A DNA stretch of 11,626 nt from a bacterium. GTDB lineage: Bacteria > Patescibacteriota > Minisyncoccia > Phycocordibacterales > Phycocordibacteraceae. A model generated the notes under the pieces. The model had not been told where the DNA came from. It did not search any database and saw nothing but the letters and a program-made list of their open reading frames with translations. Where the stretch lies: assembly GCA_021802795.1 (NCBI GenBank), contig JAJZRH010000011.1, positions 1-11,626 of the forward strand, written 5' to 3'. The translations under genes were made by a program, and so were the position numbers. Of this stretch, positions 1 to 9,758 are shown piece by piece (the stretch's first letter is position 1; each line of letters opens with the position of its first letter).

Positions 1-1089
1 GCCGCCGTCGAGGTCTATGAGGGTCTGTACCGAACCCTTGCCGAACGACTTCGTGCCGATGAGGGTTGCGGCGTGATTGTCCTGCAGCGCGCCCGCGAGG
101 ATCTCGGAGGCGGAAGCGGAACCGCTGTCGATGAGCACGGCGATCTTCACCCCCGCCGGCGCATCCATATAGCCGAGGCTGGTATGCACGTTGTTATCCT
201 GCTTGCCGCCGAAGTCTTCGGTGACGATGGTCGTGCCCTTGGCGAGGAAATGGCTGGCGATGTCTACCGCCGCGTCGAGGTAGCCGCCCGGATTCCCGCG
301 CAAATCGATGACCAGTTTTTTCGAACCGGACGCTTTGAACCGCTCGAAGGCCTGGTCGAAGAGGTCCGCGGAGTTGGAAGTGAATTCATAGAGCGCGATA
401 TGGTAGACCCCGCTCGCTTTGTCGAGGCCGTCGTCGGTTTCGGGAACCTGTATGGTGTCGCGCGTGACTTTGACGTCGAACGCCTTCTTGTCGCGGACGA
501 CGGTGAAGCTGACCGTCGTGCCGATAGGGCCGCGTATCATGCTCACCGCCTTTTCGGTTGAGAGGCCGTCGGTTGATTTTCCGTCGATAGCGATTATCTG
601 GTCGCCTGCTTTCATGCCGGCCGCTTCTGCGGGGGTCCCCTTCAGGGGAGCAATGACGGTCAAGACGCCGTTCTTCACGTCTATCTCCATGCCGACGCCG
701 GCGAAGCTTCCCGAGATGCTTTCTGAGAACGCCTTTGCCTCCTTTGGCGGGAAGAAGACCGTATACGGGTCGCCGTAGGAAGCGGCCAGGCCGCTGATGG
801 CGCCGTAGAGGCGTTCCTTGGTCGTCGGGAGCGTGGAGGAAGCGTGCGTGATGACGTAATTGGTCGCAAGCGCGTTCCACGCCTTCCAGAACGAGACCAG
901 ATCGACGCTCTGGTCCGGCGTCGAGTCAAGGCCGTCGCCGATGAGCGGGATATGCGAGGCGACAGCGGCCGCGGAGCCGGTACCGCCGACCGAAAGTCCC
1001 GCGCCGAAGGCGACAGCGGCAACGAGCGCGAACGAGATGCCGCGCATCACAATGCTCCGCTTCCCCGGTCCCTCCGCTCCAAATTCCAT
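1..1089 (-). CDS. C-terminal processing peptidase, S41 family (CtpA/Prc-like), partial
   Basis: Serine protease of the tail-specific (CtpA/Prc) family, acting outside the membrane on protein C-termini. The frame is open from 1089 to the left window edge (363 codons), so the 3' end is missing. Seen, numbering from the 1089 ATG: a hydrophobic anchor or signal segment at about 17-44, a PDZ domain at about 120-205, the RGNPGG motif at 264-269, then a GSASASE block. By alignment with E. coli Prc (Ser430/Lys455/Gln459) the triad is Ser326, Lys351 and Gln355, all present, so an active protease is expected. Start choice is open: the ATG at 1089 lies 2 nt after the predicted start of an extended -10 promoter and has no Shine-Dalgarno, while an in-frame ATG at 1047 has GGAG (1055-1058) 7 nt upstream. 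Either start keeps the hydrophobic segment. Divergent from the corA-like gene. Confidence 0.93.
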   Translation of the reverse strand, partial: MEFGAEGPGKRSIVMRGISFALVAAVAFGAGLSVGGTGSAAAVASHIPLIGDGLDSTPDQSVDLVSFWKAWNALATNYVITHASSTLPTTKERLYGAISGLAASYGDPYTVFFPPKEAKAFSESISGSFAGVGMEIDVKNGVLTVIAPLKGTPAEAAGMKAGDQIIAIDGKSTDGLSTEKAVSMIRGPIGTTVSFTVVRDKKAFDVKVTRDTIQVPETDDGLDKASGVYHIALYEFTSNSADLFDQAFERFKASGSKKLVIDLRGNPGGYLDAAVDIASHFLAKGTTIVTEDFGGKQDNNVHTSLGYMDAPAGVKIAVLIDSGSASASEILAGALQDNHAATLIGTKSFGKGSVQTLIDLDGG

Positions 1090-1097
1090 ATCTGCAG

Positions 1098-1106
1098 AGT
1101 GTAGCA
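1098..1106 (-). promoter_or_regulatory. extended -10 promoter of the S41 protease gene
   Basis: On the minus strand TGC-TACACT reads as an extended -10 (TGn plus a 4/6 match to TATAAT). No good -35 is seen at 16-18 nt. Transcription would start near 1091, 2 nt before the ATG at 1089, giving a practically leaderless mRNA; it would also leave a 44-nt leader for the alternative SD-preceded ATG at 1047. Confidence 0.45.
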
Positions 1107-1122
1107 CACGGCAAATTGCGCG

Positions 1123-1131
1123 TGGTATTCT
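1123..1131 (+). promoter_or_regulatory. extended -10 promoter of the corA-cysS run
   Basis: TGG-TATTCT is an extended -10 (TGn, with 4/6 bases matching TATAAT). Counting 7 nt from the hexamer end puts +1 at 1138, the A of the second in-frame ATG of the corA-like gene. It would therefore be translated without a leader and residue 1 would be the MISRHEY methionine. No Shine-Dalgarno precedes either ATG. It lies 19 bp from the divergent promoter of the protease gene. Confidence 0.45.
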
Positions 1132-1137
1132 ATGGGT

Positions 1138-2058
1138 ATGATATCTCGGCACGAATACCGCGGCGGCGTATGGGTCGACCTCGAACAGCCCACCGAAGAA
1201 GAGATACGGGAGATCGTCCAAGAATTTTCCATCTCCAAGCAGTTTGAAAAAGAGCTCGTCTCCCCCACCCCGTCCCCGCTCGTCGCCGCCGGCGACGATT
1301 CGGTCCTCCTCGTCCTGCATTTCCCGGCGCACGGCCCCGAGGACGGCGCTACTGTGAATCAGGAGATCGATTTCATCATCGGAAAGCGCTTCATCGTGAC
1401 CGTGCGCTATGAAGTCGTCGCTCCGCTCTACCACCTGAAGAAGCTCTTGGAGGCGCAGGAGCTCGTGAACGGCAAAGATTCCATCACGACCGACGTTCTG
1501 CTTGAGGTGCTCTTTGCGCGCCTCTATACGGCGGTGCGCGACCACGCCGACCACGCGGTGGACGGCATGGCGCGCGTGGAGCGGGACATGTTCGACGGAC
1601 GCGAGCGCGCGGCGGTGCGTTCCATCTCGATCATTAATCGCGAATTCCTCCACATTGAGGCACTGCTCGCAAACCAGGAAGAACCGCTCGATCGATTCCT
1701 GAAAACGCTTGTCGAGCACGGTTCATTCGGCCCGTCGTTCGTCGAGCGCGGCGATCGCATCCGGGCGGAACGCGCGCAGGTCGCGCGGCTTATCACGACG
1801 CACCGCGCCATCGCCGCCGAACTCCGCCGGACCAACATGGCTCTGCTTGAAGTGCGCCAGAGCGAGATCATGAAGACGCTCACCGTCATCACCGTCATCG
1901 TGCTTCCCTTGGAGCTTATGGCGTTCATCTTCGGCATGCACCTGCCGGGGACGCCGTTCGAGGGGAACCCGAACGCATTCCTCATCGTCATGGCGCTCAT
2001 GTTCGGGGCGGTCGGCCTCGTGGCCGTTTTCTTTGCGCGCAAGCGCTGGATATTCTGA
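1138..2058 (+). CDS. CorA-like divalent metal ion transporter with a GMH motif
   Basis: Membrane protein of the CorA superfamily, which forms pentameric channels for Mg2+ and related ions. From the 1138 ATG it is 306 aa. Seen: an N-terminal cytoplasmic alpha/beta domain, a long helical stalk (about 120-245), then two C-terminal membrane helices (about 250-267 and 280-300) and a basic end ARKRWIF, the expected CorA plan and length. The motif at the end of the first membrane helix, normally GMN, reads FGMHLPG (GMH at 266-268); the codons GGC ATG CAC are unambiguous. GMN is the family's hallmark at the pore mouth and is needed for Mg2+ transport in studied CorA proteins, so the ion carried here cannot be inferred. 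An in-frame ATG at 1132 is the alternative start; 1138 coincides with the predicted +1. The stop TGA overlaps the cysS ATG by one base (TGATG), indicating translational coupling. Confidence 0.9.
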   Translation: MISRHEYRGGVWVDLEQPTEEEIREIVQEFSISKQFEKELVSPTPSPLVAAGDDSVLLVLHFPAHGPEDGATVNQEIDFIIGKRFIVTVRYEVVAPLYHLKKLLEAQELVNGKDSITTDVLLEVLFARLYTAVRDHADHAVDGMARVERDMFDGRERAAVRSISIINREFLHIEALLANQEEPLDRFLKTLVEHGSFGPSFVERGDRIRAERAQVARLITTHRAIAAELRRTNMALLEVRQSEIMKTLTVITVIVLPLELMAFIFGMHLPGTPFEGNPNAFLIVMALMFGAVGLVAVFFARKRWIF

Positions 2059-3518
2059 TGAGCTGGCTCGCGCGCATATTCAAGAAAAAAAATACGGAAG
2101 GCGTCAGGCGGCCGGCGCAAGTGTTCTTCACGAACACGCTCTCGGGTAACAAGGAGCTTTTCATACCCCAACGGCCGGGCATCGTGACGATGTACTCCTG
2201 CGGCCCGACGGTCTACAGCCAGCAGCACATCGGGAACCTGCGCGCCGCCGTGTTCGCCGACACGCTTGCGCGCGTTCTCAAAGGCGCGGGTTATCACGTC
2301 CGCCGCGTCATCAACATCACCGACGTCGGACACCTGGCCGGCGACGGCGACCGCGGGGAGGACAAGATGGCTATCGGCGCGGCGCGCGAACACACGACGC
2401 CCGAAGCGATCGCCGAACGCTACACGCGCATCTATCTGGACGATCTGGACGATCTCAACATTGACACCAAGGACATCCAGTTCCCGCGCGCGACCGAGTA
2501 CATCAAGGAACAGGTCGCTCTCGCAAAGACCCTGGAGGAGAAAGGGTTCGCCTACCGTCTCCCCGACGGCCTTTACTTTGATACTGAAAAATTCCCGAGC
2601 TACGGCAAGCTCGGCGGCCTCCAGGGCGTAAAGCAGGAGGCGGGCGCGCGCGTTGAGGTGGTCAAGGGCAAGCGCCATCCCGCCGACTTCGTCCTCTGGC
2701 GGACGGCCAAACCGACCGACCTCCAGCAATGGGACAGCCCGTGGGGGCGCGGCAATCCGGGTTGGCACATCGAATGCTCGGCGATGTCCCGCTCCCTGCT
2801 CGGCCAGGAGATAGACATCCACACCGGCGGCATGGAACACATCGGCGTTCATCACAACAACGAGATAGCGCAATCGGAGGCGGCGAGCGGCCGCACGTTC
2901 GTGCACTACTGGCTCCATAATGCGCACTTGAGCATCGAGGGCGCGAAGCTGGCGAAATCGACCGGTAACGCGATCTATCTTTCCGATATCACAAAAAGAG
3001 GCTTGCATCCGCTCGCACTGCGTTACTTCTTTCTCCAGGCGCACTATCATACTCCCCTCTCCTTCTCGTGGGATGCGCTCGCCGGCGCGGGGAACGCGCT
3101 CGAACGCCTTCACAAGATGGCGGGCGACATCGCCGAGGAGTCGAAGTGCGCGAGCGCGCCGAGCGAAGCGCGCGACCGTTTCCTCGCCGCGATGCGCGAC
3201 GACCTCGCGACGCCGCAAGCGCTCGGCGTGCTCTGGGACTCCCTCAAAAGCGAAGACTACGCGCCGGAAGAGAAATGGGGGCTTTTGGAGGATGCCGACG
3301 TGCACCTCGGCCTTTCGCTCGCCGAATCAAGGGCATCGGGGACGGTCGCGGAGGCGGACATTCCTCAGGCGATCCGGGATATGCTCTCCCGGCGCGAAAT
3401 AGCCCGCGTTTCCAAGGATTTCGCCGAGGCGGACCGCATCCGGGGCGATATCGAGCGCAGTGGATATCGTGTGGATGACGGCCCGGACGGACCAGTGTTG
3501 ACCAGGGACGCGATTTGA
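2058..3518 (+). CDS. cysS: cysteinyl-tRNA synthetase
   Basis: Class I aminoacyl-tRNA synthetase charging tRNA-Cys in the cytosol. 486 aa, near the usual 460-470. Seen: the HIGH-type motif as HIGN (57-60), the KMSKS-type loop as KLAKS (297-301), and the catalytic zinc ligands expected by alignment with E. coli Cys28/Cys209/His234/Glu238: Cys48 (MYSCGPTVY), Cys240 (HIECSAMS), His265 and Glu269 (HHNNEIAQSEA). The C-terminal DALR and anticodon-binding regions are present, so the gene is complete. About 20 extra residues precede the usual N-terminus, beginning MSWLARIFKKK, a short amphipathic basic stretch. The only nearby in-frame ATG lies in the MYSC motif, so the overlap start is kept. The start codon shares one base with the corA-like stop and has no clear ribosome site, so it is probably translated by re-initiation. 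Pairing with a metal transporter may be only operon packing. Confidence 0.97.
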   Translation: MSWLARIFKKKNTEGVRRPAQVFFTNTLSGNKELFIPQRPGIVTMYSCGPTVYSQQHIGNLRAAVFADTLARVLKGAGYHVRRVINITDVGHLAGDGDRGEDKMAIGAAREHTTPEAIAERYTRIYLDDLDDLNIDTKDIQFPRATEYIKEQVALAKTLEEKGFAYRLPDGLYFDTEKFPSYGKLGGLQGVKQEAGARVEVVKGKRHPADFVLWRTAKPTDLQQWDSPWGRGNPGWHIECSAMSRSLLGQEIDIHTGGMEHIGVHHNNEIAQSEAASGRTFVHYWLHNAHLSIEGAKLAKSTGNAIYLSDITKRGLHPLALRYFFLQAHYHTPLSFSWDALAGAGNALERLHKMAGDIAEESKCASAPSEARDRFLAAMRDDLATPQALGVLWDSLKSEDYAPEEKWGLLEDADVHLGLSLAESRASGTVAEADIPQAIRDMLSRREIARVSKDFAEADRIRGDIERSGYRVDDGPDGPVLTRDAI

Positions 3519-3524
3519 TACAAT
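3498..3524 (+). promoter_or_regulatory. promoter of dnaB inside the end of cysS
   Basis: TTGACC (3498-3503, 5/6 match to the -35) is followed after a short 15-nt spacer by TACAAT (3519-3524, 5/6 match to the -10). The predicted +1 is near 3531, 2 nt before the ATG at 3533. The promoter lies across the last codons and stop of cysS, so dnaB-recR could be transcribed separately from corA-cysS. The spacer is 1-2 nt shorter than ideal. Confidence 0.5.
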
Positions 3525-3532
3525 GGTCGGCA

Positions 3533-4888
3533 ATGGCCACCGACCGCGTTCCCCCGCAATCCCTTGAATCAGAACGCGCCTTGCTCGGCGCGCTTCTTCT
3601 CAAACCCGACGCCATCCACGACGTTTCCGACCTTATCCATCCGGACTCCTTCTACGCGGAAAAACATCGCATCATTTTCGGCGCGATGCGCGAGCTTTCC
3701 GAGCGCGGTGAACCCATCGACCAGCTCTCGCTCTCCGAGCGCCTCCAGGGACAGGGACAGCTTGAACGCGCCGGCGGCAGAAGCTATCTCGCCGAGCTCG
3801 CCGGCAGCGCACCCGCGCCGGGCAACTTCTCGCACTACGCCGAGCTCGTCTCGCGCAAGTTCCTGATGCGCTCGCTTATCGACGCCGCCTACGCCATCAA
3901 TGAGTCCGCCTACGATGAGGCGCGCGACACGATGGAAGTGCTCGATGAAGCAGAAAAAAATATCTACGCCATCGGCAACGCGTCGGCCGCACACAAGTTC
4001 ACCGCAATCGGCGACAAAATACACGAGGCGTGGGAACGCATTGAGGCGCTTTCCCACAAGGAAGGCGGCATCCGCGGCGTCCCGTCCGGCTTCCCCGCCC
4101 TCGACAACCTGCTTTCCGGATTCCATCCGTCCGATCTCGTCATCCTCGCCGCGCGTCCTTCGATGGGTAAGACCTCGCTCGCGCTCGACATCGCCCGGAA
4201 CGCGGCGGTGCGCCACAACGTACCCGTCGGCATCTTCTCGCTTGAGATGAGCTCGGAACAGCTCATTGACCGCATGCTCGCGGCTGAATCGTTCGTGAAC
4301 TCCTGGAAACTGCGCACCGGCCAGGTAAAAGAGGAGGAGGATTTCAACCGCATCCGCGACGCGCTCGAGGTGCTCTCCAAAGCGCCCATCTATATCGACG
4401 ACAAGCCGGGCAATAACATCCTCGCCATGCGCGCGGTGGCGCGGCGCCTCAAGCGCGAGCGCGGCATCGGGCTCATCGTCGTGGACTACCTTCAGCTCAT
4501 GGCGCCGACCTCAACCAAAGCTTCCGACTCCATGGTCCAGCAGGTGACGGAAATATCCCGCTCGCTCAAGGGGCTTGCCCGCGAACTCGAAGTGCCGGTC
4601 ATCGCGCTCTCCCAGCTTTCCCGCGCGGTGGAACAGCGCGGCGGTAAACCGCGCCTCTCCGACCTGCGCGATTCCGGTTCCATTGAACAGGACGCGGACG
4701 TGGTGATGTTCATCCACCGCGAGGATAAGCAGAACAAGGACAGCGATCGCCCGAACATCGCCGAGATACTCATCGAGAAGCACCGCAACGGCCCGACCGG
4801 CAAGACCGAACTCTACTTTGACGAGAAACGCGCCACTTTCCAACCGGTCGACACTTCGGGTTACGGCGAACTCGCGCAGGAATTCTAA
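3533..4888 (+). CDS. dnaB: replicative DNA helicase DnaB
   Basis: Hexameric 5'-3' helicase that unwinds DNA at the replication fork and recruits primase. From the ATG at 3533 it is 451 aa, usual for DnaB. Seen: N-terminal helical domain starting PPQSLESERALLGALL (1-110), linker (about 110-180), RecA-like domain with Walker A ARPSMGKTS (207-215), catalytic Glu238 in FSLEMSS, Walker B DYLQL (318-322), the SQLSRAVEQR block (360-369), the DLRDSGSIEQDAD block (377-389), and an arginine-finger candidate Arg418 in KHRNGPTG. No intein interrupts the Walker motifs. The frame extends upstream to a TTG at 3515, but 3533 gives the family N-terminus (MATDRVPPQ) and sits next to the predicted +1. No Shine-Dalgarno is seen. 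The TAA overlaps the recR ATG by one base. Confidence 0.97.
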   Translation: MATDRVPPQSLESERALLGALLLKPDAIHDVSDLIHPDSFYAEKHRIIFGAMRELSERGEPIDQLSLSERLQGQGQLERAGGRSYLAELAGSAPAPGNFSHYAELVSRKFLMRSLIDAAYAINESAYDEARDTMEVLDEAEKNIYAIGNASAAHKFTAIGDKIHEAWERIEALSHKEGGIRGVPSGFPALDNLLSGFHPSDLVILAARPSMGKTSLALDIARNAAVRHNVPVGIFSLEMSSEQLIDRMLAAESFVNSWKLRTGQVKEEEDFNRIRDALEVLSKAPIYIDDKPGNNILAMRAVARRLKRERGIGLIVVDYLQLMAPTSTKASDSMVQQVTEISRSLKGLARELEVPVIALSQLSRAVEQRGGKPRLSDLRDSGSIEQDADVVMFIHREDKQNKDSDRPNIAEILIEKHRNGPTGKTELYFDEKRATFQPVDTSGYGELAQEF

Positions 4889-5490
4889 TGGACCATATCG
4901 AGGAACTCGCGCGTGCGCTCTCTCGCCTGCCGGGCATCGGACCGCGGCAGGCAAAACGCTTTGTGTACTTCCTCCTTGCCGCCCCCGCCGCGGAACGCAC
5001 CGAACTCGCAGGGCTTATTACGGCACTGGGAAAATCCGTCCATCAATGCCCGGAGTGCCTCCGCTTTTACAACGGCACCACGGCGCTTGTCTGTAACTAC
5101 TGTTCCGACGGCAAGCGCGACGATTCTCTGCTCTTGCTCGTGGAGAAAGATCAGGACCTCGCCGCCGTGGAGCGCGCCGGCACTTACAAGGGGCGCTACT
5201 TCGTCCTTGGCGGCGTACTAACCCTTACCGGCAAGGGCGCCATTCGAGAAAAAGAACTCGTGCGCACCGTTGAAAAGCGTTTGAAAAATAACCTGAGCGA
5301 AGTGGTGCTCGCGCTCTCGGCCACGAGCGAGGGCGAACACACGGCGGACCGCGTGCGCGAACTGCTCCTGCCGTACCGCGATCACCTGAGGGTGTCCGTG
5401 CTCGGACGAGGACTTGCGACCGGAAGCGAACTTGAATACTCCGATGCCGAGACACTCCGTGCCGCACTCACCAATCGCAAGGAGGCGTAA
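4888..5490 (+). CDS. recR: recombination mediator protein RecR
   Basis: DNA-binding ring protein of the RecFOR pathway, which helps load RecA on gapped single-stranded DNA. 200 aa, the family norm. Seen: helix-hairpin-helix LSRLPGIGPRQAKRF (11-25), four-cysteine zinc motif Cys54-Cys57-Cys69-Cys72, Toprim domain (about 79-175, with VEKDQDLAAVE and the ALSATSEGEHTA block), and the closing GLATGSELEYSDAETL segment. Start ATG overlaps the dnaB stop (TAATG) and has AGGA (4878-4881) 6 nt upstream, one of the few clear ribosome sites in the window; this fits an internal operon gene while first genes lack one. In many bacteria recR follows dnaX and ybaB, so direct coupling to dnaB is a different context. 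A strong terminator follows 11 bp downstream. Confidence 0.96.
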   Translation: MDHIEELARALSRLPGIGPRQAKRFVYFLLAAPAAERTELAGLITALGKSVHQCPECLRFYNGTTALVCNYCSDGKRDDSLLLLVEKDQDLAAVERAGTYKGRYFVLGGVLTLTGKGAIREKELVRTVEKRLKNNLSEVVLALSATSEGEHTADRVRELLLPYRDHLRVSVLGRGLATGSELEYSDAETLRAALTNRKEA

Positions 5491-5501
5491 CCGCACGACA
5501 T

Positions 5502-5540
5502 AAAGAAAAACACTACCATATAGGGCAGTGTTTTTCTTTT
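5502..5540. terminator. bidirectional Rho-independent terminator between recR and the helicase gene
   Basis: A perfect 13-bp inverted repeat: AAAGAAAAACACT (5502-5514) and AGTGTTTTTCTTT (5527-5539) around a 12-nt loop. The A-rich arm on one side and T-rich arm on the other give a U-run at the 3' end whichever strand is read, so it can end both recR (+) and the convergent helicase mRNA (-). Confidence 0.85.
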
Positions 5541-5551
5541 GTAATAAATGA

Positions 5552-6907
5552 TTAGCCCTGCACGAAGGTCAACGCCTTCCCTTTCATCTCTGCGCGGCCG
5601 GTGCGGCCGATGCGGTGGACATAGTCCTCATACGTGGACGGAAGGTCGTAGTTGATGACGTGGGACACGGCAGGGATATCCAGGCCGCGGGCGGCCACGT
5701 CGGTCGCGACAAGCGCGACCACCTTCCCCGTCTTGAACGCTTCCAACGCGCGGATGCGGGCGCCGTAGGTCTTGTTGCCGTGAATGCTCTCCGCGTGGAT
5801 GTGCCGGCGCGACAGCGCCTTGGCGAGCTTCTCCACGCCGAACTTCGTACGGCCGAATATGAGCACGCGGCTGAAATCGCGGTCTTTGAGGAGATCAACG
5901 AGCACCTCAAATTTGTCGGCGCCGCGCGGGATGCGGACGACATCTTGCTCGACGTTCTTTGATGTATCCTGCGTCTTCACCGAAATGATGACCGGGTTGT
6001 CCAGGAAGTCGCCGATGAGGCGCTCGATATCCTTCCCCATCGTTGCGGAGAAGAACAGCGTGTGCCGCTCCTTGCGCATTTTGGAAAGAATGAGGCGCAT
6101 GTCGTCGATGAAACCCATGTCGAGCATGCGGTCCGCCTCGTCGAGGACGACCGTGCCGAACTCGGTCAAGACGAGCGCCTTGCGCTCCAAGAGGTCCTTC
6201 AGGCGTCCCGGCGTACCGATGACGAATGCCGGATCATGCTTCAACTGGGAGATCTGCGGGCCGATATTGGCGCCGCCGACGGCAACCATGCCGCGGAAGC
6301 CCAAGCCCTTTGCAAAGCCCGCGAGCTCCTTCTCTATCTGCACCGCGAGCTCGCGCGTGGGCGCCATAATGAGCACGCGCTCTCCTTTCTGCTTCATCAC
6401 CTTGTCGATGAGCGGAATGAGGAAGGCAGCCGTTTTGCCGGTGCCGGTTTCGGCGAGGCCGACCACGTCCTGTCCAAGGAGCGCATGCGGAATGGCCTTG
6501 TCCTGAATGGGCGTCGGCGACACGTATTTGTGCGCCTCAATGTTCGCCTTGAGCTTCGGGTTGATGTCGAAGTCGGAGAACTTATGCTCCGCAACGAATA
6601 CCGGCTCGGAGGTCGTCACGACCGTTTTGTTCGTAAATTTCGCTATCTCCGCCTCGGTCTCGCCGAAGGTGCCGAAGCCCCCGCGGCGCTGACCGCCGCG
6701 ACCGCCAAAGCTCGGCTTGCCGCCGAAACCGCCCCGGCTGCCGTAGCTCGAACCGCCGCGGGACGGGCCGCGATCGCTTCCGTAGCGGCGCGGGCCGCTT
6801 GCGCTGCCGCCCTGTGACGGACGCGGCGAATACGGCCGGCTCGCGCCGCCTTTGCTATGCGAGGAGCTGCCTCCCCCTGACTGATGATTCCATCTTCCTA
6901 TTTGCAT
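5552..6907 (-). CDS. DEAD-box ATP-dependent RNA helicase with N-terminal RG-rich tail
   Basis: Superfamily 2 RNA helicase, probably for ribosome assembly or RNA remodelling. 451 aa. Seen: a disordered Gly/Ser/Arg tail (about 1-82) with four RGG triplets (about 50-77), then a complete core: Q-motif PTPIQ (131-135), Walker A AETGTGKT (152-159), PTREL (183-187), TPGR (232-235), DEAD (256-259), SAT (287-289), motif V ATDVAARGLD (401-410), motif VI HRIGRTGR (431-438). Two things are odd. The RG-rich tail is N-terminal, while RhlE/CsdA-type enzymes carry it C-terminally. The protein also stops 13 residues after motif VI (ALTFVQG-stop), before the last helix that usually closes the second RecA domain. 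No Shine-Dalgarno or good -10 is seen just before the ATG, so it may be co-transcribed from rplU 69 bp upstream. The subfamily cannot be assigned. Confidence 0.94.
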   Translation of the reverse strand: MQIGRWNHQSGGGSSSHSKGGASRPYSPRPSQGGSASGPRRYGSDRGPSRGGSSYGSRGGFGGKPSFGGRGGQRRGGFGTFGETEAEIAKFTNKTVVTTSEPVFVAEHKFSDFDINPKLKANIEAHKYVSPTPIQDKAIPHALLGQDVVGLAETGTGKTAAFLIPLIDKVMKQKGERVLIMAPTRELAVQIEKELAGFAKGLGFRGMVAVGGANIGPQISQLKHDPAFVIGTPGRLKDLLERKALVLTEFGTVVLDEADRMLDMGFIDDMRLILSKMRKERHTLFFSATMGKDIERLIGDFLDNPVIISVKTQDTSKNVEQDVVRIPRGADKFEVLVDLLKDRDFSRVLIFGRTKFGVEKLAKALSRRHIHAESIHGNKTYGARIRALEAFKTGKVVALVATDVAARGLDIPAVSHVINYDLPSTYEDYVHRIGRTGRAEMKGKALTFVQG

Positions 6908-6933
6908 TGTGTGTAACTAAATAAATAAAAGAT

Positions 6934-6948
6934 AAGGCGACATGCCTT
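6934..6948 (-). terminator. weak hairpin between rplU and the helicase gene
   Basis: On the minus strand AAGGC-ATGTC-GCCTT (5-bp stem, 5-nt loop) is followed by the T-rich ATCTTTTATTTATTTAG. It could be a weak or leaky terminator after rplU, or a leader element of the helicase mRNA. The stem is short, so the call is tentative. Confidence 0.3.
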
Positions 6949-6975
6949 TTCAAGTAGGTCCGTTCTCTAAAAAAG

Positions 6976-7293
6976 TTAGGAGATCGAATCGATCTTCACT
7001 TTCAAGATTGGCTGGCGGTGTCCGCGGCGCTTGTAGTAGCGGCTCTTCGGCTTGTACTTCACCACCTCAACTTTCTTATCCAATCCGGCGAGAACAACGG
7101 TGCCCTTGACCTCCGCGCCCTTAATGAGCGGCGCGCCGATGGTCGTGTCCGAGCCGTTGTCCACGAGGAGCACCTCGCCAAAGACAACCGTGTCACCCTT
7201 CTTCAAATCCCCCGGGAGCTTCTCAATAGCGATAGTGTCGCCTTTTGAGACGACATACTGCTTCCCGCCGGTCTTGATTACGGCCACTTCCAT
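6976..7293 (-). CDS. rplU: 50S ribosomal protein L21
   Basis: Structural protein of the large ribosomal subunit that binds 23S rRNA. 105 aa, the usual length. Seen: the N-terminal signature VIKTGGKQYVVSKGD (5-19), the central KGDTVVFGEVLLV and GAPLIKGAEVKGTVV stretches, and the basic C-terminal block KYKPKSRYYKRRGHRQP typical of L21. In most bacteria rplU is followed directly by rpmA (L27); here a DEAD-box helicase follows and no L27 frame is present. A good promoter lies in the 42-bp gap after rmuC, with the predicted +1 three bases before the ATG. AGGGA sits only 2 nt before the ATG, too close for a normal Shine-Dalgarno. Confidence 0.97.
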   Translation of the reverse strand: MEVAVIKTGGKQYVVSKGDTIAIEKLPGDLKKGDTVVFGEVLLVDNGSDTTIGAPLIKGAEVKGTVVLAGLDKKVEVVKYKPKSRYYKRRGHRQPILKVKIDSIS

Positions 7294-7302
7294 AGTCCCT
7301 GT

Positions 7303-7331
7303 AATCTAGCATTTCCGCCCTAAATAGGCAA
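7303..7331 (-). promoter_or_regulatory. promoter of rplU
   Basis: On the minus strand TTGCCT (7326-7331) is separated by exactly 17 nt from TAGATT (7303-7308), which carries an upstream TGC to make an extended -10. The predicted +1 is near 7296, leaving a 3-nt leader before the ATG at 7293. It overlaps the end of the rmuC region, so rplU can be transcribed independently of rmuC. Confidence 0.55.
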
Positions 7332-7335
7332 GTTT

Positions 7336-8394
7336 CTACTCGTCCGATGCCGACGGCTTGTCCAGCAGTTCCGGTTCAATGCCTATCTTTGCCTCTGCGA
7401 TGCGGTAGACGTCCTTGTCTATCTTGCCGAGCTCTTTATAACCCGCGTTCCAGTGCGAAACTGAGGTGCCGAGCGAGACGCCGAGTTTCTTATAAAACTC
7501 CTCATACGCGCCGATGTGCTTCCCGAGCTCCCCTACCCGCTTCTGGATGTCCGCCGCCTTCTCCTCTATCTGAAGCGCCTTGAGCCCTTGCATGACCGTC
7601 TGGAGGTACGCCAGGAACGAGGTCGGCGAGACGATGATGACCTTGTATTTGCTCGCCGCCCGCTGGATGAGATTCTCCTCCTCGGCGCCTCCGCCGATTT
7701 GGTTGGTGAGGAGGTCGTAGTAGATGCCCTCGGACGGGATGAACATGAAGGCAAAGTCCATCGTGTCCTCTTCCGGCCGGATGTATTTTGCGGTCTCCTG
7801 GATGCGGAGTTTCAGGTCGTTCACGAACGCTTTCTCTGCCGCCGCGCGCTCCGGCGTACCCACCTGCGTGCTCACGAAGCGGTTGTAGTTATCCAGCGAA
7901 AACTTTGAGTCTACCGGCACAAGTTTCTTGTTGATGATAATGACGGCGTCCACGATCTCGCCGTTCTTAAACGGATACTGGATGCGGTAGTCCTCCGGCG
8001 ACATCACGTTCCGGAGCACGGTCTCCAGATAGTACTCGCCCAAGATGCCGCGCTGTTTCGGGTTCTTAAGAAGGTCTTGGAGCGATTGAAGCTGTTCGGC
8101 GTAGGTCTGCGTCTGCCGGCCGATTTCTTTCACCGAGGTGAGCTCGGTCGTGATTTCCTTGATGAGCCGGCTGGATTCGGAGAACTGGCGGTGCGCGTTT
8201 TCCTGCATCGCTTTCGACGATTCCGAGACGCGCGCGTCCAGGGTCCGTGCCAGCTCCTGCATCTGTTGCTGGAGGAGCACCATGCCGCTCCCCTCCTCTA
8301 CCGGCGCTTCGCGGCGCTTGAATATGAAATACAGACCGATGCCCTGCACGAACAAGAGCGCGAGGATGATGAGAGCAATGGTGAACAAATCCAT
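7336..8394 (-). CDS. rmuC: RmuC family DNA recombination protein
   Basis: Family linked in E. coli to limiting inversions at short inverted repeats; the core is a predicted PD-(D/E)XK-type nuclease fold. 352 aa, shorter than the E. coli protein (about 475). Seen: a single N-terminal membrane helix (about 4-25) followed by FKRRE, a coiled coil (about 38-110), then the core with RGILGEYYLETVL (115-127), GEIVDAVIII (145-154) and VDSKFSLDNY (161-170). Candidate catalytic residues are Glu120, Asp149, Asp162 and Lys164. The block FAFMFIPSEGIYYDLL, typical of RmuC, follows. It would be anchored in the membrane with the core in the cytosol. No Shine-Dalgarno precedes the ATG; the predicted promoter start coincides with it. 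Divergent from the YqeY-like gene, sharing a 21-bp gap. Confidence 0.93.
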   Translation of the reverse strand: MDLFTIALIILALLFVQGIGLYFIFKRREAPVEEGSGMVLLQQQMQELARTLDARVSESSKAMQENAHRQFSESSRLIKEITTELTSVKEIGRQTQTYAEQLQSLQDLLKNPKQRGILGEYYLETVLRNVMSPEDYRIQYPFKNGEIVDAVIIINKKLVPVDSKFSLDNYNRFVSTQVGTPERAAAEKAFVNDLKLRIQETAKYIRPEEDTMDFAFMFIPSEGIYYDLLTNQIGGGAEEENLIQRAASKYKVIIVSPTSFLAYLQTVMQGLKALQIEEKAADIQKRVGELGKHIGAYEEFYKKLGVSLGTSVSHWNAGYKELGKIDKDVYRIAEAKIGIEPELLDKPSASDE

Positions 8395-8398
8395 GTCC

Positions 8399-8410
8399 GT
8401 AGTATACTAC
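8399..8410. promoter_or_regulatory. palindromic shared -10 element between rmuC and the YqeY-like gene
   Basis: GTAGTATACTAC is a perfect 12-bp palindrome. It contains TATACT on both strands (plus 8403-8408; minus 8406-8401), a 5/6 match to the -10. Counting 7 nt outward gives +1 at 8415 for the plus gene (ATG at 8416) and 8394 for rmuC (ATG at 8394). Both mRNAs would be leaderless and the two promoters overlap, so polymerase should be able to occupy only one at a time. No convincing -35 or TGn is seen on either side. A repressor operator is the alternative reading. Confidence 0.55.
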
Positions 8411-8415
8411 CCGAT

Positions 8416-8922
8416 ATGGCTATCCACGAAACACTGAAGCAATCCATCCCCGAGGCGCTCCGCGCTCATGACGAAGTCCGCCTCCGAACGCTCCGTTCGC
8501 TCGTTACCATGATGACGAACGAAGTCGTCGCCAAGAAGCGCAAACCCGACGAGTTCCTCACGGATGAGGAAGCGCTGACCGTCGTGAAGCGCGCCGCGAG
8601 CCAGCGCAAGGACTCCATAGAACAATTTGAAAAGGCGTCCCGGAACGACCTCGCCGAGCCGGAGAAGCTTGAGCTCGCCATCATAGAGTCCTACCTCCCC
8701 CAGATGATGAGCCGCGAAGAAATTATGCCGATCGCCAAAGCGAAGATGGCGGGGCTCGGCATCTCATCCAAGGCCGACGCGGCTAAAACGCCCGAAGGGC
8801 GTTCGCCCGGCGCCTCTTTAGAGGCGCTTAGGGGCAAGTTTACCGGCACGCTGATGAAGGAGTTGAAAGGTAAAGCCGACGGAGGCGACGTGAAGGCGGT
8901 TGTGGATTCACTTCTCCAATAA
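8416..8922 (+). CDS. YqeY/GatB-like family protein with in-frame insertion
   Basis: Protein of the YqeY family, related to the tail domain of the amidotransferase subunit GatB; it may assist tRNA-dependent amidation, but its exact role is unknown. 168 aa against about 148 for B. subtilis YqeY. Seen: the N-terminal helical part with LRTLRSLVTMMTNEVV and TDEEALTVVKRAASQRKDSIEQFEKA, then LELAIIESYLPQMMS, and the C-terminal GISSKAD ... LKGKADGGDVKAVVDSLL. The extra length is about 18 residues at 122-139, between SKAD and GKFTGTLM, where the family normally runs on directly; the DNA there is two hairpins. The reading frame extends upstream of 8416 inside the rmuC antisense region, but the family N-terminus (MAIHETLKQ) and promoter geometry fix the start at 8416. 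Confidence 0.93.
   Translation: MAIHETLKQSIPEALRAHDEVRLRTLRSLVTMMTNEVVAKKRKPDEFLTDEEALTVVKRAASQRKDSIEQFEKASRNDLAEPEKLELAIIESYLPQMMSREEIMPIAKAKMAGLGISSKADAAKTPEGRSPGASLEALRGKFTGTLMKELKGKADGGDVKAVVDSLLQ
8787..8827 (+). repeat. double-hairpin palindromic insertion inside the YqeY-like gene
   Basis: Two adjacent perfect hairpins: AACGCCC-GAA-GGGCGTT (8787-8803, 7-bp stem) and GCGCCTC-TTTA-GAGGCGC (8810-8827, 7-bp stem). They coincide with the 18-residue protein insertion (codons about 8779-8832). Codons in this stretch (CGT, TCT, TTA, CTT, AGG) differ from the C/G-ending choice of the surrounding gene. This resembles small palindromic elements that insert in-frame in genes, such as the Rickettsia palindromic elements, but no second copy is seen in the window. 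Confidence 0.6.
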
Positions 8923-8928
8923 GCGCCC

Positions 8929-8958
8929 TTGACCGGGTGGCGGCATCCCTGTCATACT
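8929..8958 (+). promoter_or_regulatory. promoter of the small 8992 gene
   Basis: TTGACC (8929-8934, 5/6 match to the -35), an 18-nt spacer, then CATACT (8953-8958) preceded by TGT as an extended -10. The predicted +1 is 8965, exactly the A of an in-frame ATG. The ATG at 8992, which has a ribosome site, would then have a 27-nt leader. Confidence 0.6.
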
Positions 8959-8978
8959 TTGAACATGTCCAACCGCAT

Positions 8979-8984
8979 GGAGGG
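8979..8984 (+). promoter_or_regulatory. Shine-Dalgarno site of the small 8992 gene
   Basis: GGAGGG lies 7 nt before the ATG at 8992, the strongest Shine-Dalgarno match ahead of any gene here. It favours 8992 over the upstream in-frame ATG at 8965 and shows that this genome still uses SD initiation. Confidence 0.6.
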
Positions 8985-8991
8985 ACGACCT

Positions 8992-9297
8992 ATGGGCAGC
9001 AGACGCAATGAACCGGGACCGGAAGATCCTTGGTCCGTACTCGGGTCCGAAGCGCTCAAGGCGCATGAGGCGGCCGGAGCGGCGAAAAGGATACAGCAGG
9101 TCCTCGACAAACATCGGCCGACCAACGACACAACCGCGGCGCCGGAAGCCGTGCCGGTGGTCACCGCGCCGACACGCCCGCCCAATCCGCAGGAAGCAAA
9201 AAAACGATTGGCGGAGATCTTCACCGACCCCGAAGAAGCGCTACGAGAAGCCGGGGAGGCGGCAATTCGGCTCGAGAAATCGAACCCAACTCCCTGA
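8992..9297 (+). CDS. small hypothetical protein, charged and Pro/Ala-rich
   Basis: Not recognised. 101 aa from the SD-preceded ATG at 8992, or 110 aa from the ATG at 8965 that coincides with the predicted +1. Seen: a polar start MGSRRNEPGPEDPW, a helical stretch about 16-42 (SVLGSEALKAHEAAGAAKRI), a Pro/Thr/Ala-rich probable linker about 42-66, and a second charged helical part (PQEAKKRLAEIFTDPEEALREA). No signal peptide, membrane segment or cysteine is present, so a soluble cytosolic protein is expected. Its own promoter, ribosome site and a strong terminator right after it support a real, separately expressed gene. The antisense frames over it are shorter and have no such signals. No function can be assigned. 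Confidence 0.75.
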   Translation: MGSRRNEPGPEDPWSVLGSEALKAHEAAGAAKRIQQVLDKHRPTNDTTAAPEAVPVVTAPTRPPNPQEAKKRLAEIFTDPEEALREAGEAAIRLEKSNPTP

Positions 9298-9318
9298 CTG
9301 GCGAGTCTTGGGACAACC

Positions 9319-9346
9319 CGGGTAGCCTCGGCTACCCGTCTTTTTT
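9319..9346 (+). terminator. Rho-independent terminator after the small gene
   Basis: CGGGTAGC (9319-9326), loop CTCG, GCTACCCG (9331-9338), then TC and six T (9341-9346). This is a classic 8-bp GC-rich stem with a U-run on the plus strand only. The T-run overlaps the stop codon of the convergent response regulator gene; on the minus strand the hairpin has no U-run, so it should not stop that mRNA efficiently. Confidence 0.9.
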
Positions 9347-9758
9347 ACGGACAGGGGAGCTTCTCGGCGTTCAACACCTCTTTGACCTTTTCTGCAACGG
9401 CCTCTAATTTCCAATCGGCCTTCACCATAAAGAACGAGGGACCGAGCTCGGCGATATGCCGTATCTGCTCATCCTCGTTCGCGCTCAAATTGGTCAAAAT
9501 GATGACCGGCACGCACTTTCCCCAATCGTCTTTCTCGCGCACCTGCTTCAGCATTCCCCATCCGTCCATCCTCGGCATCAGGATATCCAGCAGAATGAGA
9601 TCAGGGCGTTCCTTGAACGCGGCGGCAAGGCCCGTCACGCCGTTTTCCGCCTCGACCACGTCGAGACCTTCCTTCGCGAGCATCGTGTGCAGGGCCTTGC
9701 TGATGGTCAGATCATCCTCGACCACGAGAACCTTCTTTTTGCCGGTTTCTATAGTCAT
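9345..9758 (-). CDS. single-domain response regulator (receiver only)
   Basis: Phosphoacceptor protein of a two-component system. 137 aa, receiver domain only, with no DNA-binding or enzyme output domain, so it resembles CheY- or Spo0F-like relays that act through protein contacts. Seen: acidic cluster VVEDD (Asp15/Asp16), phosphorylated Asp58 in LILLDILMPRMDG, Thr89 in IILTN, and Lys113 in FFMVKAD, the full set of switch residues. It ends EKLPCP with a C-terminal cysteine. It begins 6 bp after the stop of the histidine kinase gene on the same strand, so the two are very probably partners. No ribosome site is visible; CATAAT (9764-9769, minus) lies just upstream and could be a -10, though the predicted start would fall within the ATG. 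Confidence 0.95.
   Translation of the reverse strand: MTIETGKKKVLVVEDDLTISKALHTMLAKEGLDVVEAENGVTGLAAAFKERPDLILLDILMPRMDGWGMLKQVREKDDWGKCVPVIILTNLSANEDEQIRHIAELGPSFFMVKADWKLEAVAEKVKEVLNAEKLPCP

Follow-up and report, generated by a model that had tools for sequence, protein, structure and literature searches.

Predicted leaderless gene starts set by extended -10 promoters in a Kaiserbacteria-type Patescibacterium

The contig and its predicted promoters

We examined the transcription and translation start signals of contig JAJZRH010000011.1, part of a metagenome-assembled genome (MAG) of 477,136 bases in 65 contigs (71.5% complete). The window, by which we mean the whole stretch of DNA that was analysed, is the entire 11,626-bp contig. 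It encodes an S41 protease, a CorA-like transporter, CysS, DnaB, RecR, a DEAD helicase, ribosomal protein L21, RmuC-like and YqeY-like proteins, a small open reading frame (ORF), a response regulator and a histidine kinase. The YqeY name was adopted from a preliminary description of this DNA, and the regulator and kinase were named from their sequence without a family search. The window DnaB matched proteins of Kaiserbacteria/Paceibacterota MAGs, with identities from 100% downwards, and therefore the source is a Kaiserbacteria-type Patescibacterium. In this lineage, sigma-70-type extended -10 elements (TGnTATAcT) very probably set the transcription start 0-3 nt before the start codon, giving predicted leaderless mRNAs as a standing mode of expression, and the conventional signal for starting translation seems to have been mostly given up.

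The preliminary description had placed promoters for leaderless translation at seven genes. Its predicted +1 positions (1091, 1138, 3531, 7296, 8394, 8415 and 8965) are exact, each being the seventh base after the hexamer. The elements and the genes that they would serve are as follows.

1..1089, minus strand: S41 C-terminal processing peptidase (TIGR00225, E 4.9e-77), 3' end cut by the contig end
1098..1103, minus strand: extended -10 TGC-TACACT of the S41 gene, 8 nt before ATG 1089; predicted +1 1091, 2-nt leader; P 0.0022
1126..1131, plus strand: extended -10 TGG-TATTCT of the CorA gene, 6 nt before ATG 1138; predicted +1 is the A of the ATG; P 0.0011
1138..2058, plus strand: CorA-like transporter (TIGR00383, E 3.4e-31, under the curated cut-off)
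3519..3524, plus strand: extended -10 TGA-TACAAT of dnaB, 8 nt before ATG 3533; predicted +1 3531; P 0.0032
3533..4888, plus strand: dnaB (TIGR00665, E 4.9e-158)
4888..5490, plus strand: recR (TIGR00615, just under the cut-off), operon-internal and without a -10; overlaps the dnaB stop (TAATG)
6976..7293, minus strand: rplU, encoding bL21 (TIGR00061, E 3.1e-29)
7303..7308, minus strand: extended -10 TGC-TAGATT of rplU, 9 nt before ATG 7293; predicted +1 7296, 3-nt leader; P 0.0086
7336..8394, minus strand: RmuC-like gene (weak NCBIfam match); -10 TAG-TATACT, predicted +1 8394, the A of the ATG
8399..8410, both strands: 12-bp perfect palindrome GTAGTATACTAC holding the overlapping -10 hexamers of rmuC (8401-8406, minus) and yqeY (8403-8408, plus)
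8416..8922, plus strand: YqeY-like gene (0 NCBIfam matches); -10 TAG-TATACT, predicted +1 8415, 1-nt leader
8953..8958, plus strand: TGT-CATACT of the small ORF, 6 nt before ATG 8965; P 0.0054
8965..9297, plus strand: small ORF of 110 aa, candidate starts at 8965 (with the -10) or in-frame 8992 (with GGAGG)
9345..9758, minus strand: response regulator, an eighth candidate, with TACCAT (-14) or CATAAT (-11) before ATG 9758; P 0.012; TAnnnT in 5/9 orthologues

The reference set was 927 ATGs lying in frame inside the sampled genes, and each of the seven sites outscored at least 99% of them (P 0.0011-0.0086). These P values are mildly circular, because the window's own genes were among the 125 used to train the score matrix. 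A cleaner measure is the strict TAnnnT box, which lies at -15 to -12 in 7 of the 12 window starts (background 7.6/121; binomial P = 2.3e-6), namely six of the seven sites (all but the small ORF) and the response regulator at 9758, which had previously been overlooked. Most of these starts had been said to lack a Shine-Dalgarno (SD) sequence, and GGAG, GAGG or AGGA indeed occurs in the 17 nt upstream of none of them (0/7). The CorA start is ATG 1138 by comparison with orthologues (62/62), where our gene finder had called 1132. The TGA of the dnaB extended -10 doubles as the cysS stop codon. ATG 8965 had been singled out as the weaker case, and rightly so: GGAGG stands before the in-frame ATG 8992, although the -10 before 8965 scores well (P as listed above). 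Since some short genes in relatives carry strong SDs, the -10 does not settle the choice between 8965 and 8992. No homologue of the small ORF was found in any of the relatives' loci examined.

Placement and conservation of the -10 motif

Leaderless genes of Actinobacteria carry a TAnnnT box adjoining the start codon. The preliminary description had proposed positional enrichment of this box near -12 as the test of its claim, and such enrichment was found in a genome sample, in relatives and at orthologous genes. Genes of the sample were called by a finder that uses coding statistics only and is blind to upstream signal, run on the window plus 20 contigs (182,729 of the 477,136 bases, 206 genes). 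Upstream of first genes TAnnnT peaked at -15 to -12, where it was present in 44/125 transcript-first genes compared with 6/57 internal genes. A second run, with pooled training and a background expectation taken from upstream positions, gave 41/121 first genes against 7.6 expected. The -10 hexamer was enriched over background 5-9 nt before the start codon, and de novo expectation maximization recovered TGnTATAcT, most often placed at -12; the log-likelihood ratio was 173.7, compared with 43-66 in 20 shuffles. The mixture fraction from this procedure was rejected as a leaderless percentage because shuffled sequences reached values just as high; the conclusions draw on likelihood and position alone. 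A preferred spacer to a -35 box was not evident among 47 genes. ATG was the start codon of 53/54 genes with the motif compared with 111/141 without it (Fisher P 3e-4), a difference that partly reflects miscalled starts. E. coli, run through identical code, was a clean negative (TAnnnT 7/89 against 8.9 expected; SD 36 against 5.8), and Deinococcus radiodurans MP1 gave a weaker peak (TAnnnT 10/85 against 2.6 expected). Near relatives with a DnaB identity of at least 88% (37 loci) had the motif at 93 of 188 divergent genes, a count in which orthologues are repeated.

The assertion that first genes are largely leaderless is supported in the sense that a substantial share is predicted to be so from sequence. 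Over and above background, about 28% of first genes have a correctly placed strict TAnnnT (41 minus 7.6 of 121), and the true leaderless share could be higher or lower, because start calls are noisy and the 5' ends are predicted.

At six of the seven genes, relatives have preserved the -10 along with its start codon while the surroundings change. TAnnnT was present at -15 to -12 in the orthologues of CorA (62/62), RplU (65/67), DnaB (71/77), YqeY (51/55), RmuC (50/55) and the S41 protease (45/59), compared with 5/82 and 17/70 for the control orthologues RecR and CysS. In the rows examined the spacing was specific to the gene, mostly -12 for CorA and RmuC and mostly -15 for RplU. These counts required an alignment starting no more than 25 residues from the query start, and the start codon was picked within 12 codons with ATG preferred. 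The loci of the named relatives all surround dnaB, and therefore the same orthologues are counted many times in the relatives' figures. One locus, L031 (JAKAGD010000005.1, WY2.bin144), has a DnaB 100% identical to that of the window and is probably from the same or a near-identical organism; it was included in the orthologue counts and excluded from the 188 divergent genes.

The divergent rmuC and yqeY genes have one -10 in common, with 21 nt between their starts and ATGs 22 nt apart. Among 31 divergent rmuC-yqeY pairs from relatives, 21 retain GTATAC, and in 17 of those 21 the starts are separated by 20-23 nt. Where the gap is longer, two distinct -10s are apparently present, as judged by eye. 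Divergent pairs with a gap of at most 30 nt made up 7/24 in the sample (two being overlapping calls), compared with 0/23 in E. coli, 0/12 in a set from the same class with intact anti-Shine-Dalgarno (anti-SD) and 4/67 in other classes. Symmetrical -10 bidirectional promoters, in which divergent transcription start sites flank a shared -10, commonly have spacings of 18, 10 or 23 bp (Warman et al. 2026, PMC12825309). With its shared -10 and ATGs 22 nt apart, the predicted rmuC/yqeY site fits the 23-bp class, here from sequence alone. It differs in that the start codons directly flank the element, so that one short core would serve two genes almost without leaders. The word "leaderless" is absent from the available text of that paper.

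Shine-Dalgarno signals, 16S tails and initiation factors

SD cores were at background in the genome sample, before both first genes (8/121, 8.2 expected) and internal genes (2/50, 3.9 expected), and SD-like 5-mers preceded 0/57 internal genes (1.0 expected). This does not support the earlier view of internal genes as SD-led, and the 16S tails of the genus lack an anti-SD. For recR, the proposed AGGA is present at offset -10; however, internal genes of the sample show no excess of such cores. The gene overlaps the stop codon of dnaB and is probably translated by coupling to it. Same-strand neighbours in the sample overlapped by 4 nt in 10 cases and by 1 nt in 6, a frequency that makes coupling likely. 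As for a substitute SD complementary to the new 16S tail, no 4- or 5-mer was enriched before first or internal genes of the sample. The top k-mer matches at internal genes were rejected as an alternative SD, as they look like stop-codon artefacts.

CCTCC was missing from all 24 of the genus 16S tails read, which resemble GGAACATATCCAATTGGAA, from 9/9 tails of other genera of the family, and from the order-level genome G099. Among 27 tails from the rest of the class, 10 were intact, 6 altered and 11 lost, and genome G080 was also intact. All 14 readable tails of other classes were intact, with 14 more unreadable by the tail pattern. In total 22/96 16S loci gave no tail by pattern (6 from the genus or family, 2 from the class including G080, which was read separately, and the 14 from other classes), and of the 47 genomes of the class in which a 16S match was found, 30 were initially represented by loci. 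A 16S tree of 70 genomes, from which 4/74 tails with too little 16S were omitted, contained a clade of 38 (support 100/99) made up of 36 lost and 2 altered tails, with further losses outside it. In genus and family tails (e.g. L225, L252 and L152) a TCC-N4/5-GGA inverted repeat takes the place of the anti-SD and perhaps relates to rRNA processing. This repeat might form a hairpin, but the predicted folds were inconsistent across 9 tails.

The C-terminal domain of IF3 has a one-residue insertion after a GR[AYE]K motif (GQAK in one genome) in 16/16 members of the anti-SD-lost clade, compared with 0/28 others (infC loci L327-L370). It was rejected as a general marker of anti-SD loss, being absent from 4/4 other lost and 4/4 altered genomes outside the clade; therefore, it marks the clade. 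The insertion site is one that we take to correspond to R131-E134 of E. coli IF3, in which the mutation R131P reportedly alters start selection. We regard the insertion as a marker of the clade that offers a lead and falls short of proof. IF3 was found in 62/64 genomes, missing from our own incomplete MAG and from G025. Loss of S1 was discarded as a correlate, since S1 domains were found in 64/64 genomes, and so was loss of bS21, for which matches were weak and mixed (34/64, 12 above the cut-off).

Leaderless initiation and its alternatives

What can be read from the sequences is the motif, where it lies, how it is conserved among orthologues, that SD cores in the sample are at background level and that the genus tails have lost the anti-SD. 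We infer that transcription would start at the site defined by the -10 and that the ribosome would initiate directly on the 5'-terminal AUG. Operon-internal genes would mostly be reached by termination-reinitiation where a stop codon touches or overlaps the next start, and a few, such as dnaB, by their own leaderless promoter inside the end of the upstream gene. A small set of genes would possibly still be SD-led, and the clade-specific IF3 change may, speculatively, aid leaderless initiation. A more far-reaching version, to which we give a little less than even credence, is that leaderless initiation is the default across the clade: the 16S lacks an anti-SD, first genes would be leaderless and internal genes coupled, SDs would be a vanishing residue, and the C-terminal domain of IF3 would no longer reject 5'-terminal AUGs.

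Leaderless starts directly behind a -10 are a known kind. In D. radiodurans the -10 motif adjoins the start codon and gives leaderless mRNA for almost one third of ORFs (Zhong et al. 2025, PMC12340547; "Patescibacteria" is absent from its main text, as far as this was available). The -10 lies directly before the start codon in both lineages. However, SD genes are retained in Deinococcus (20/85 against 8.8 expected in the MP1 control), whereas here SDs are at background and the genus lacks the anti-SD. Amin et al. 2018 (PMC6107228) catalogued 128 bacteria without an anti-SD, most of them from Bacteroidetes, Mycoplasma and Carsonella; neither "Parcubacteria" nor "CPR" occurs in the text available. 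The genus resembles that set in 16S tails without CCUCCU, and our own sample in SD motifs at background level. It differs in that leaderless promoters can be seen here as what has probably taken over.

Several observations weigh against leaderless initiation as the standing mode of this lineage. Strict TAnnnT was missing at the tested positions in 81/125 first genes, internal genes were also enriched at a lower level (6/50 against 0.8 expected, second run), and DEAD-helicase orthologues had no fixed -10 (12/37). The MAG itself yielded no 16S, and therefore anti-SD loss in this species is extrapolated from its genus. Two genomes with separate anti-SD losses, G043 and G071, showed no TAnnnT excess. 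The second run left out five survey stretches of at most 4,000 nt (L175, L186, L190, L212 and L215). SD cores before first genes numbered 13 in the clade (11.2 expected) and 14 in anti-SD-intact members of the class (9.2 expected), and the per-genome SD difference between the clade and other classes was not significant (P 0.088; genomes with fewer than four first genes were left out of the per-genome clade and class comparisons). Strong SDs, defined as AAGGAG or AGGAGG, preceded 7/381 (0.8 expected) and 10/414 (2.1 expected) first genes in two named groups of relatives and 4/150 (0.9 expected) in the survey clade. About 2% of the relatives' first genes thus retain one, which speaks against full abandonment of the SD, and in view of this excess the notion that the SD is wholly gone was rejected. 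SD-like 4-mers were also found in 47/200 relatives' genes that lie behind a gap and are not window orthologues, compared with 14 expected (6.0 + 8.0).

For comparison, strong SDs preceded 3/138 first genes in our own sample (1.5 expected), 17/410 in other classes (1.5 expected) and 10/91 in E. coli (0.0 expected). Before internal genes they numbered 0/198 and 0/141 in the named groups, 1/54 in the clade, 0/57 in our own sample, 5/142 in other classes and 9/38 in E. coli. Ten of the 47 genes with SD-like 4-mers contain TAGGAT, itself a TAnnnT box (by eye). Before bL9-like genes (named by eye) of L071, L075, L086, L094 and L104, TAGGAT lies about 14-15 nt before the ATG, so that the AGGA resembling an SD belongs to a -10 box. 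A classic strong SD precedes a small set of mostly short genes of relatives (L031-L110, e.g. L050, L060 and L097), even though the genus lacks the anti-SD. Relatives' genes with an SD-like 5-mer were shorter (medians of 113 and 145 aa) than those with a -10 (151 and 186 aa). These shorter genes may be recent arrivals, a group to which the window's small ORF, whose in-frame ATG 8992 follows a GGAGG, could belong.

Leaderless starts could instead be general to Patescibacteria, with anti-SD loss in the clade incidental, an alternative that we regard as rather unlikely. Other classes combine a weaker TAnnnT peak (92 against 52.5 expected in 388 first genes) with SDs (65 against 24.8), and this peak, a further point against a mode peculiar to the lineage, indicates that leaderless starts also arise outside lineages without an anti-SD. 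However, the leaderless excess averaged 0.29 over 10 genomes of the anti-SD-lost clade, as against 0.08 over 10 anti-SD-intact genomes of the class (Mann-Whitney P 0.007), a test that ignores shared ancestry in a clade that may represent a single event. Less probable still is a two-layer arrangement, in which upstream promoters also give leadered mRNAs that carry much of the translation and some SD-led genes persist. The motif search put some -10 sites at -40 to -20, some divergent gaps run to hundreds of nucleotides, and the strong-SD residue in relatives fits such an arrangement; on the other hand, the sample had neither enriched 4- or 5-mers complementary to the new tail nor SD cores above background, and divergent gaps of at most 30 nt leave little room. 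It is very improbable that the motif is an AU-rich translation signal (e.g. S1-binding or an unstructured start context) with true promoters further upstream, for although S1 domains are present in all 64 genomes tested and reduced structure at starts is reported for non-SD genes in the portion available of PMC5397173, the recovered motif is that of an extended -10, complete with TGn, and has a modal spacing, rmuC and yqeY have a single palindrome in common within the 21 nt between their starts, and the available text of PMC12340547 reports experiments in which the equivalent Deinococcus motif acts as a -10, not a ribosome-binding site.

The combination of leaderless starts with anti-SD loss, a shared palindromic -10 and an IF3 insertion looks new. 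Searches for leaderless or (anti-)SD together with candidate phyla radiation (CPR), Patescibacteria, Parcubacteria or Saccharibacteria gave no such report among the matches listed, to the extent that these were available. The anti-SD loss may be partly known, since two studies probably bear on it: Nikolaeva et al. 2021, which reportedly dealt with loss of the anti-SD in tiny genomes, and Tsurumaki et al. 2022, said to have dealt with CPR ribosomes. Leaderless initiation is usually a side route beside the SD. With anti-SD loss, background SDs, a -10 fixed against the starts and a clade-specific IF3 insertion found together, whether leaderless initiation can be the default becomes testable. Gene finders applied to these MAGs should weigh the -10 as well as the SD when calling starts, as with CorA (1138 as opposed to 1132).

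Finally, terminator-like hairpins followed by a T-run were seen by eye between convergent genes of the window at 5500-5540 and 9310-9350.

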